A stretch of 64,000 nt of DNA, taken from assembly GCF_022809355.1 (NCBI RefSeq), contig NZ_JAKZMM010000007.1:1-64000 (forward strand), written 5' to 3'. The notes under the pieces are model-generated. The model was not told where the DNA came from and searched no databases. It was given only the letters and a program-made list of their open reading frames with translations. Numbering within the stretch: the first letter of the stretch is position 1; every line of letters starts with the position of its first letter. Shown here piece after piece: positions 5,192 through 56,875 of the stretch. The stretch comes from Parabacteroides faecalis. Lineage in GTDB: Bacteria; Bacteroidota; Bacteroidia; Bacteroidales; Tannerellaceae. A program made the position numbers and the translations under genes.

Positions 5192-6676
5192 ATGAGGATG
5201 AAAAAAAGACTTGTTGTCCTGTTTTTATTTTGTGTTTCCTGGCTGTTGCAAGCAGCCGATTCGCCTAAACACGAGATTCGTGCGGTATGGCTGACGACCG
5301 TTTATGGTTTGGATTGGCCTCGTTTTACTGCAAATTCCGAACATTCTCGGAAAGCCCAGCAAAAGGCCGTCTGTGATATGCTCGATCGTTTACAGGATGC
5401 TAATTTCAATACCGTATTCTTTCAGGTTCGTTTGCGGGGAGATGTGGCTTATCGTTCTGCCATCGAACCGATGTCGTATGTCTTTTCCGGAAAAGAAGGT
5501 GTTTCTCCGGGGTATGATCCATTGGCTTATGTGATAAAAGAATGTCATCAGCGAGGAATGGAATGTCATGCTTGGTTTGTTACTTTTCCGTTGGGTACGG
5601 ATGAGTTTGTCAGGAAATTAGGAAAGAAGTCTGTCGTGAAGCGCCATCCGGAACTCTGCAAGAAGCACAAAGGAGAGTGGTATTTGGATCCCGGTATTCC
5701 CGGAACGACTGATTACATCTTGTCGTTGGTGCGCGAGATTGTTTCGAATTATGATATTGACGGTATTCACTTTGACTATATCCGCTATCCGGAATCTGCC
5801 AATTCTTTCCCAGATAAGAGTGTTTATCGTAAATACGGACGGAAGAAAGATTTATATCAATGGCGCCGAGATAATATCAACCGGATGGTTCATCGGATTT
5901 ATGACTGGGTGAAATCGGCTAAACCTTGGGTACAGGTAAGTAGTTCTCCGTTGGGAAAATACAGCCGGATTCCGGAAGTTCCCAATGCGGGTTGGACTGC
6001 CTACGAGAGTGTTTACCAGGATCCGAAGCAATGGATGCAGGATGGGAAACAAGACATGGTGGTTCCTATGATGTATTATTTGCATAAAAATTTCTTCCCG
6101 TTTGTGGATAATTGGGTAGAAAACAGCAATGGCCGACTGATTGTTCCGGGTTTGGGCGCATACCGGCTTGAGAAAGAAGAAGCCGACTGGGCTTTGACGG
6201 ATATTACCGACCAGATTGATTACTGCCGTTATTATGGTACGGCCGGTTGCACCTTCTTCCGCTGTCTGAATGTCCTTTCGAATGAAAAAGGCATATACGA
6301 CGAATTGAAAAACCATTACTATCAATACCCAGCCTTATTGCCTCCGCTGACGTGGTTGTGCGATTCACTTCCGCAGTCTCCTGCCGAGATCTGGGTTGAA
6401 CGCTTGGAGGGAGAACTGAAGTTAAGTTGGGAGAAACCCGCTTCTGAAAAACAAGATTTGACTTATACCGTTTATTATTCCTTGACTGATACGATGAACA
6501 CCGACAAGCCTCAGCATATTTTGGCGACAGGTATCCGAGGAACAGAATTGTATCTGCCTGTACAGTCCAATCGGGAACAGGGATATTTGTTTGTAGTAAC
6601 GGCTTCCAACCGGTATCATCTGGAGGGAAAACCTTCCAGAGAAACGTATTATTATTACTCGAAATACGAAAAATAG
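5192..6676 (+). CDS. exported glycoside hydrolase family 10-like protein (PF02638 type)
   Basis: A 494-residue protein with an N-terminal signal peptide (MRMKKRLVVLFLFCVSWLLQAA) followed by EIRAVWLTTVYGLDWP, the start typical of the GHL10/YngK-like family (PF02638, formerly DUF187). A DGIHFDYIRYP motif lies near residues 190-200, and MMYYLHKNFF and PGLGAYRL segments follow. These fit a TIM-barrel hydrolase. The C-terminal 100 residues, starting around AEIWVERLEGELKLSWEKP, look like a fibronectin-III-like beta domain. Such proteins occur widely in Bacteroidetes and some act on cell-wall glycans, but the substrate is not evident. It is transcribed separately from the kdu operon, with its own -7 box. 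Confidence 0.82.
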   Translation: MRMKKRLVVLFLFCVSWLLQAADSPKHEIRAVWLTTVYGLDWPRFTANSEHSRKAQQKAVCDMLDRLQDANFNTVFFQVRLRGDVAYRSAIEPMSYVFSGKEGVSPGYDPLAYVIKECHQRGMECHAWFVTFPLGTDEFVRKLGKKSVVKRHPELCKKHKGEWYLDPGIPGTTDYILSLVREIVSNYDIDGIHFDYIRYPESANSFPDKSVYRKYGRKKDLYQWRRDNINRMVHRIYDWVKSAKPWVQVSSSPLGKYSRIPEVPNAGWTAYESVYQDPKQWMQDGKQDMVVPMMYYLHKNFFPFVDNWVENSNGRLIVPGLGAYRLEKEEADWALTDITDQIDYCRYYGTAGCTFFRCLNVLSNEKGIYDELKNHYYQYPALLPPLTWLCDSLPQSPAEIWVERLEGELKLSWEKPASEKQDLTYTVYYSLTDTMNTDKPQHILATGIRGTELYLPVQSNREQGYLFVVTASNRYHLEGKPSRETYYYYSKYEK

Positions 6677-6721
6677 CTTTTACATTCATGACCAAATAGT
6701 TAAATCTTCGTATCCTTTTAT

Positions 6722-6809
6722 ATTTTTGACAGATGTGCTAAAGCTTTTCCATATATGTGCTAAAGCTTTTTGACGGATATGGAAAAGCTTTTCGACAGCT
6801 GTCAAACAA
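6722..6809. repeat. 88-bp three-unit palindrome-core element, copy A
   Basis: Three 18-bp units (6735-6752, 6757-6774, 6779-6796) are each centred on AAGCTT, with the cores at 6741, 6763 and 6785: an exact 22-bp period. Units are separated by 4-bp linkers (agat, atat, ggat, agct) and bounded by 9-bp end halves, which places TTTGACAG (6725-6732) and CTGTCAAA (6799-6806) as inverted termini. The half-words are GTGCTAAAG, ATGGAAAAG, GTCAAAAAG and GTCGAAAAG. It is nearly identical to 27628-27715, except that the middle unit is reversed there. Confidence 0.85.
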
Positions 6810-6870
6810 TTAAAAGATAGCAGGTATAAATTTTCAATTGAAAGGAAAAGGATATTCAGATAAATGGACT

Positions 6871-6878: not shown

Positions 6879-7003
6879 CGGCGATAAAAAAGTTCTCTTT
6901 TTTATTAAAAAGAATGCAGCGTTTTATTAATTAATTTCATCATTCTAAATGTTGGTTCCTGTATTAATAAGGATGAACTACGTGTGAATGAAGGTGTGTG
7001 AGG

Positions 7004-7534
7004 ATGGACGAACAACAACTGATAGCGGGTTGCAAAAGCGAAAATCGATTGGCTCAACGGGAGTTATATGAGAAATATGCTCGTAGAATGCTGGCGGTGT
7101 GCTTGCGCTATGTCAATGATATGGAGACAGCCCGCGATTTATTGCAGGATGGTTTCGTCCGGGTGTTTACGAACATTCATTCTTATACTGGATCCGGTTC
7201 GTTTGAAGGCTGGCTTCGAAAGATATTCGTAAATGGTGCTTTGGAATATTTGCGGAAGTCGGATGTCTTGCGCGAATCAACAGATTTGGAAAACTCGGCG
7301 GAATTAGTACAGCCGGATAGTTCCGCCATAGAGAATTTGTCGGCTGCAGAATTGATGAAAGTGATACAGGAATTGCCTGCGGGCTTTAGGACTGTATTCA
7401 ACATGTTTGCCATAGAAGGGTATTCGCATAAGGAAATTAGTGAGATATTGGGTATTACAGAAAGTACATCACGCTCACAATTTACGCGGGCGAGGCAACT
7501 ATTGCAGAAACGCATAAAAGAATTGTACAAATGA
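7004..7534 (+). CDS. ECF-type RNA polymerase sigma factor
   Basis: A sigma-70 family member of 176 residues with only regions 2 and 4. Region 2 carries YVNDMETARDLLQDGFVRVF and region 4 carries GYSHKEISEILGITESTSRSQFTRARQLLQ. The ATG at 7004 is preferred over the in-frame GTG at 6998 because AAGG at 6991-6994 is correctly spaced only for the ATG. Its last codons overlap the ATG of the next gene (ATGA), so sigma factor and membrane partner are translationally coupled. That arrangement is usual for a sigma/anti-sigma pair. The regulon is unknown, but the two lipoprotein genes and the membrane protein that follow are candidates. Confidence 0.88.
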   Translation: MDEQQLIAGCKSENRLAQRELYEKYARRMLAVCLRYVNDMETARDLLQDGFVRVFTNIHSYTGSGSFEGWLRKIFVNGALEYLRKSDVLRESTDLENSAELVQPDSSAIENLSAAELMKVIQELPAGFRTVFNMFAIEGYSHKEISEILGITESTSRSQFTRARQLLQKRIKELYK

Positions 7535-27627: not shown

Positions 27628-27715
27628 ATTTTTGACAGATATGCTAAAGCTTTTCCATATTTGTCAAAAAGCTTTATCACATATATGGAAAAGCTTTTCG
27701 ACAACTGTCAAAAAA
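27628..27715. repeat. 88-bp three-unit palindrome-core element, copy B
   Basis: The layout equals copy A. AAGCTT cores sit at 27647, 27669 and 27691 (22-bp period), with 4-bp linkers agat, attt, atat and aact. The termini TTTTTGACAG (27629-27638) and CTGTCAAAAA (27705-27714) are perfect inverted repeats. Outer units match copy A almost base for base. The middle unit (27663-27680) is GTCAAAAAG joined to CTTTATCAC, the reverse complement order of copy A. Confidence 0.85.
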
Positions 27716-56787: not shown

Positions 56788-56875
56788 CCGTTTCACCCAG
56801 GTGGAACGGTCGTATCACCTATGTGGAACGATCGTATCACAAGGGTGGAATGATCGTCCCACCCGGGTGAAACGG
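56788..56875. repeat. 88-bp three-unit element, copy C (different words, same layout)
   Basis: Three 18-bp units begin at 56801, 56823 and 56845 (exact 22-bp period): GTGGAACGGTCGTATCAC, GTGGAACGATCGTATCAC and GTGGAATGATCGTCCCAC. The middle unit has the palindromic core CGATCG; the outer cores differ from it by one base each. Linkers are 4 bp (CCAG, CTAT, AAGG, CCGG). The perfect 12-bp inverted termini ACCGTTTCACCC (56787-56798) and GGGTGAAACGGT (56865-56876) contain the end half-words. Half-words follow GTGnnnCGR with nnn = GAA, ATA, GGA or AAA (one copy has TGA for CGR). Confidence 0.85.

Follow-up and report, generated by a model that had tools for sequence, protein, structure and literature searches.

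A 22-bp-period palindromic array in Parabacteroides faecalis as a candidate multi-site target of an HU-HIG winged-helix protein

The array and its family in the source genome

The window, which is the whole stretch of 64,000 nucleotides analysed here, comes from a source genome of 4.3 Mb (G000) and contains an 88-bp palindromic array, copy A, between a glycosyl-hydrolase-like gene and a gene for a sigma factor, as well as a second array with the same words (copy B) and a third with other words (Table 1). Recounting the coordinates bore out the original prediction that 6722-6809 is exactly 88 bp long and carries three AAGCTT cores at a 22-bp step, with AAAGCTTT starting at 6740, 6762 and 6784. 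Dissection of the array agreed with the predicted internal order as well: six inner 9-bp half-words of the types GTGCTAAAG, ATGGAAAAG and GTC[AG]AAAAG, joined in three pairings that occur once each, are combined with four 4-bp linkers (AGAT, ATAT, GGAT and AGCT) and two inverted end halves. A search for three AAAGCTTT spaced 22 bp apart, with up to three mismatches allowed, gives two occurrences in the window and none in eight mononucleotide shuffles. The score of copy A in a word-blind array search is a modest 0.61, control spacings in the same window reaching up to 0.59, so that the case rests on the evidence of the family. The two peaks at d=11 given by this score in the window (0.59 and 0.57) are apparently unrelated.

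Table 1. Positions of the arrays, their parts and the flanking genes in the window
Feature	Position	Strand	Remarks
88-bp AAGCTT-family array, copy A	6722..6809	.	8 half-sites of 9 bp, four 4-bp linkers, 22-bp period
Core 1 AAGCTT, copy A	6741..6746	.	
Core 2 AAGCTT, copy A	6763..6768	.	
Core 3 AAGCTT, copy A	6785..6790	.	
Left conserved flank, copy A	6704..6721	.	~18 bp, family consensus AAATCTCGTTACnTTTTAA, edges fuzzy
Right flank, copy A	6810..6827	.	inverted equivalent of left flank; both ends pooled
Second AAGCTT-family array in window, copy B	27628..27715	.	
Array of the same design, other words	56788..56875	.	GTGGAACGATCGTATCAC, GATCG family
Flanking gene, GHL10 glycosyl-hydrolase-like	5192..6676	+	outside element
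Flanking gene, sigma-70 family factor (ECF-like)	6998..7534	+	outside element

A blastn search with the element against the source genome gave 78 matches on both strands, which were grouped by eye into 40 places; a pattern search contributed five further loci, and the total stands at 44 loci. These comprise 42 arrays with at least three cores, 38 of them 88 bp and four 110 bp long, and two arrays interrupted by an insertion sequence. As the array finder presupposes the 22-bp step, the fair test of spacing is provided by the blastn places, in all 40 of which two or more cores keep the 22-bp step exactly. A lack of further copies, or loss of the spacing in them, would have contradicted the original prediction; the 42 arrays and the spacing kept at every blastn place show the opposite. 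The pair AAAGCTTT-N14-AAAGCTTT occurs 73 times in the source genome versus 0-2 times per genome in 392 other Bacteroidales, and the AAGCTT array has no blastn match in 37 congeners (E≤0.001). Among the genomes searched, the AAGCTT words are private to the source genome. The interval 6700-6830 has no match in plasmid and phage collections, and viral contigs gave three matches to the generic array pattern.

In the 42 aligned copies, the information content reveals weaker conservation for about 18 bp beyond both array ends, and when the copies are oriented each half-site position has its own favoured words. Together, the position-specific half-words and the conserved flanks suggest that whole units of about 124 bp are copied. 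Relative to the neighbouring genes, the 44 loci divide into 15 divergent, 14 co-directional and three convergent arrangements (12 without assignment), and a wider set of 130 arrays into 26, 40 and 23 (41 without assignment), which indicates no general promoter bias. The genes adjoining the AAGCTT copies are diverse and form no coherent regulon.

Recurrence of the design and its linkage to HU-HIG genes

The flanks of insertion sequences in the source genome revealed two further word families with the same geometry. Three CAC-N4-GTG at a 22-bp step were matched in five of 295 Bacteroidales and in none of the controls; one of the five (G105) has the pattern in a single place, inside an ORF. The four-fold pattern, searched in 84,980 species, gave at least 117 stretches, and among those listed 112 have Bacteroidota titles and five lie outside. 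Across genomes the words vary while half-word length, linker length and period are constant; the predicted design of 9-bp half-words, 4-bp linkers and a 22-bp period recurs in related Bacteroidales with other words. Conserved array positions across genera were considered and set aside, since the recurrence of some neighbour genes among loci is near chance by an estimate that is only rough.

Clustering of the genes nearest to the 130 pattern-found arrays, a set that includes a few non-Bacteroidota loci, showed that one protein family adjoins 11 of them, at distances of 10-143 bp and always with transcription leading away from the array. The cluster that comes next consists of five members at four loci, not all of them adjacent. 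The recurrent family is HU-HIG (PF18291), with 117.5, 113.4 and 74.4 bits for three members. Burroughs et al. are said to have described HU-HIG in 2017 as a Bacteroidetes expansion of the HU/IHF superfamily. Seven HU-HIG matches in the source genome reach a winged helix (HU-HIG-wHTH) and eleven are shorter. The HU-HIG-wHTH gene G000:C49:25910-26503, whose protein matches PF18291 with 109.5 bits (cut-off 26.2), has an AAGCTT array 60 bp upstream. The genes at C25 (ATTAAT words), C6 and C14 have arrays with words of their own (scores 0.59-0.76), and the array upstream of G000:C5:86963 is truncated (0.53) and by eye of the GATCG family, so that, judged by eye, this gene is the partner of the array at 56788-56875. 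The two HU-HIG-wHTH genes on C1 have no upstream array.

The linkage was quantified on 126 HU-HIG genes, drawn from 18 loci of the source genome, 23 other congeners, the 11 array neighbours and four further genomes after exclusion of three loci that had no clear match to the profile. At a spacing of 22 bp, 65 of the 126 upstream regions reach a score of 0.6, as against at most one at each of six other spacings and one downstream region at 22 bp. In 72 of the 112 full-length genes the upstream array is equalled by none of 200 dinucleotide shuffles (p≤0.005), and at p≤0.05 the number rises to 86, the downstream controls giving 0/110 and 7/110 at the two thresholds; the remaining 26 of the 112 have no upstream array at p≤0.05 with 200 shuffles each. 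The centre of the first linker lies at a median of 139 bp before the presumed ATG, which places the end of the 88 bp about 60 bp before it. In a group of 13 genes whose profile match stops short, three reach p≤0.005; the group contains both true short forms (eight in the source genome, of which one is at p≤0.005) and genes that are cut or divergent. Two short HU-HIG genes (L241 and L242, at G000:C17:72283 and C94:3732) have strong 22-bp arrays (0.78) on their 3' side.

Both searches cover 30 genomes of the genus, 11 of which, the source genome included, have at least five generic matches. Nine of these 11 carry an HU-HIG-wHTH gene (E≤1e-25). The other two, G400 with 110 generic matches and G426 with five, have no HU-HIG-wHTH match at this threshold, and the one locus inspected in each is a looser repeat with non-palindromic spacers. 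A further 15 of the 30 genomes have an HU-HIG-wHTH gene and fewer than five generic matches; many of their gene-linked arrays use non-GTG words, invisible to the CAC-N4-GTG pattern. The looser type, seen at L350 (G400), L357 (G422), L358 (G423) and L360 (G426), consists of palindromes of 10-12 bp (e.g. ACACAACTGTGT) at steps of about 22 bp, separated by non-palindromic spacers. By eye it is also present upstream of the genes L343 and L344, where it is not significant by the array score.

Dispersed arrays resemble the gene-linked array of their own genome. For 15 of 25 dispersed arrays (23 loci as the tools returned them and two copies from the window), the best match among the gene-linked arrays of 35 genomes is that of the own genome, which is among the top three for 17; the mean similarity is 0.80 to the own genome versus 0.48 to other genomes (label permutation p 2e-4). 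The arrays are not fully independent, as several come from related genomes or from the same one. Left out of this test are L362, L363 and L365-L368, which had been hand-picked for family likeness, and L352, whose genome has no gene-linked array for comparison. A 26-array version that includes the six hand-picked loci gives 0.86 versus 0.56, and the unpicked set has more exceptions. Eight of the 25 rank their own genome below third: L096 and L104, whose partner array at the C5 gene can be seen but is truncated, and L177, L194, L153, L218, L348 and L358, for which no partner was seen.

The words also covary with the proteins. With arrays scoring at least 0.59 and full-length proteins, near-duplicates removed (59 of 69 kept), word similarity tracks the similarity of the wHTH part after removal of HU similarity (partial r 0.22, Mantel p 5e-4, 59 genes), and HU similarity retains a partial correlation of 0.13. 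Within the recognition helix, Tyr at position 3 goes with C as the third word base in 22 of 24 genes, and for Arg at position 7 this base is G in 15 of 19 genes. The strongest word-covarying column, residue 109 (z 9.3), belongs to the HU domain, which means that ancestry accounts for part of the covariation. Related HU-HIG genes can have arrays with different words, as seen for L222 compared to L142 and L112 (58 and 57% identical).

At the protein level, a C-terminal HTH gives weak Pfam matches in two of the three array-neighbour proteins scanned; the C49 protein has no Pfam HTH match and aligns with the HTH-bearing neighbours in that region. The AF2 model of the relative L222 comprises an HU part and a winged-helix part with a mean pLDDT of 83.9 and a pTM of 0.47, at which the relative placement of the two parts is not reliable. 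Its residues 137-196 form helices and strands of the winged-helix kind, with block pLDDT values of 84-93 from residue 141. The best PDB match of the model is a putative DNA-binding protein of Bacteroides vulgatus (4fmr), followed by HU and IHF chains. In a profile search, residues 28-118 match HU and IHF, and residues 132-195 give a weak match (E 0.008) to a Z-DNA-binding winged domain.

A proposed binding array and its rivals

From sequence evidence, the element is quite probably an array of several binding sites for one private protein of the HU-HIG-wHTH type, whose gene lies elsewhere in the genome; for the AAGCTT family this would be the C49 protein. This explanation, the best of those considered, rests on the architecture, the copy number, the gene linkage, the word matching and the covariation. 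The winged helix would read the 9-bp half-words, two of which would face each other 4 bp apart. With a step of two helical turns, the units would all lie on one side of the double helix, and the HU domain would dimerise and bend the DNA. Given facing half-sites, 22-bp units and HU dimers, about four dimers could load on the 88 bp. The array upstream of the partner's own gene is probably an autoregulatory operator, and the dispersed copies may be further candidate sites for the same protein, either intergenic chromatin or regulatory sites, or passengers of a copying process. A multimeric DNA-binding protein had been among the candidates of the original prediction, and it gains support from the arrays upstream of the 72 full-length genes and from the word matching within genomes.

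The most serious rival, which we regard as unlikely, is that the copies, of about 124 bp, are mobile repeats of a MITE-like or REP-like kind dispersed by a transposase, with a secondary link to HU-HIG, for example if the unit was born from the operator of that gene. Conserved inverted flanks outside the 88 bp, the position-specific order of half-words, the restriction of the words to one genome among those searched and the lack of a coherent regulon all fit such an origin, as does a subset of copies in the sister genomes G394 and G395 that shares about 190 bp, flank sequence included. However, 41 copies give no signal of target-site duplication (longest flanking direct repeat 4.83 versus a null of 4.92, sd 0.15), the source genome is without Y1_Tnp, the one transposase sought, and mobility alone leaves unexplained why most HU-HIG-wHTH genes have the design upstream within a narrow range of distances. 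Where a MITE would have terminal inverted repeats, the copies show conserved inverted flanks of about 18 bp with fuzzy edges. In the copies that share about 190 bp (L361, L362, L369, L370, L372, L374 and L375, and by eye also L107, L140, L213 and L355), it looks as if the array rides inside a larger repeat.

It is improbable that the arrays serve chiefly as landing pads for an insertion sequence of the ISAs1 family. Such an element (NF033564, E 1.4e-100) has 28 exact ends in the source genome, with the end CAGGGCTGACGCATTACA, and makes target duplications of 9-10 bp. Of the 27 ends examined, drawn from L010-L069 of this genome, 16 have an array of one of three word families at a distance of 0-20 bp, and seven more pair with array-adjoining ends through a 9-bp target duplication, two pairings being ambiguous (L060 with L019 or L028, L064 with L018 or L035); the remaining four (L057, L062, L066 and L068) have no array link. 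Nevertheless, 29 of the 39 scanned array loci are without an insertion-sequence end; the insertion sequence exploits the arrays, and neither their design nor their position upstream of HU-HIG genes is explained by it. In other genera, ends of like appearance occur at 23-24 bp from the first CAC of an array (L099 in G258, and L221).

Still less probable is a role as sites at which a site-specific recombinase recombines or inverts DNA, a recombinase substrate having been another of the original candidates. The sister genomes G394 and G395 are 93.6-97.8% identical over long aligned stretches, with four dispersed arrays kept in place and four of seven presumed orthologous array pairs confirmed. 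Comparison of the 20 units of the four kept arrays and the gene-linked array shows two that are exact reverse-complement flips (no mismatches, versus 6 and 4 in direct orientation) and a third that fits better flipped (3 mismatches versus 5). Yet the same flips would result from template switching at a palindrome or from conversion among copies, and no recombinase cluster stands out among the array neighbours. Template switching at palindromes or copy conversion would account for the flips together with the half-word mosaic. Single 22-bp units that are exact reverse-complement flips between the sister species are those of L361/L362 and L367/L368.

A structured RNA, also among the original candidates, or a single-strand hairpin is the least credible reading. 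The folding z-scores are strong (copy A -6.5 and -6.2 on its two strands, copy B -8.4, the copy at 56788 -8.2), but a strand of copy A folds as a near-palindrome must, and 37 oriented copies show no compensatory matching (stem-partner arms at z -2.2 to +0.3 versus permuted ones, so that pairing is seemingly not under selection). The innermost pair of arms mostly carries two unlike words (GTGCTAAAG in 19/37, GTCAAAAAG in 26/37), and Rfam at gathering scores finds only a tRNA in the whole window.

Implications and comparison with known systems

HU proteins are textbook bacterial chromatin proteins with little sequence preference. On the binding-array reading, a large HU subfamily of obscure role appears to have acquired sequence addresses; its DNA target can be recognised in genome sequence, which makes the function of HU-HIG-wHTH proteins directly testable. 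Tens of natural pairs of protein and word would provide material for a winged-helix recognition code, and in gut Bacteroidales the reading would account for one class of dispersed repeat as well as for hot spots of insertion sequences. More tentatively, and as something we hold possible but short of likely, Bacteroidales may harbour many independent HU-HIG-wHTH address systems with private half-words in rigid 22-bp arrays, in which words and recognition helix drift together and tens of arrays per genome serve as sequence-addressed chromatin sites that ISAs1-type elements exploit or are steered to. Titles and abstract openings in the literature, among which Burroughs et al. 2017 was not covered, point neither to these arrays nor to a private 22-bp array per HU-HIG gene or to families of dispersed arrays.

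REP/BIME elements, which go with RAYT, are dispersed intergenic palindromes. They are described as targets of insertion sequences in the opening of PMC1525189. The present arrays share both properties with them, as far as that opening goes. They differ in the absence of Y1_Tnp, in the fixed 88-bp array and in the presumed HU-type partner; a RAYT was rejected because Y1_Tnp (PF01797) has no match in the source genome, control matches being obtained in five of 14 genomes.

BrickBuilt elements of Porphyromonas gingivalis are direct 23-nt tandem repeats of variable number with a leader and a tail, and their ends, GAGACC..., resemble those of IS5-family elements, according to the sections of PMC4596501 on their layout. 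On that partial account, the likeness lies in an intergenic dispersed repeat, a period near two helical turns and a host of the same taxonomic order, and the difference in palindromic 22-bp units, mostly three cores and a linked HU gene. Within the same limits, a BrickBuilt MITE was rejected on two grounds: the 23-nt direct-repeat layout is absent, with palindromic units of 22 bp and 38 of 42 copies of exactly 88 bp, and the IS5-type ends GAGACCTTTGCA are absent, the flank consensus being AAATCTCGTTACnTTTTAA in a comparison by eye with the table of PMC4596501.

The presumed partner is close to known HU-HIG proteins in matching PF18291 well above the cut-off, and what sets the present case apart is the private 22-bp array of each gene together with families of dispersed arrays. 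Cooperative operator arrays of transcription factors are a known kind of system. Like them, the arrays described here lie upstream of the gene for the presumed binder; unlike them, they combine an HU-type binder with eight half-sites, about 40 dispersed copies and a rapid turnover of words.
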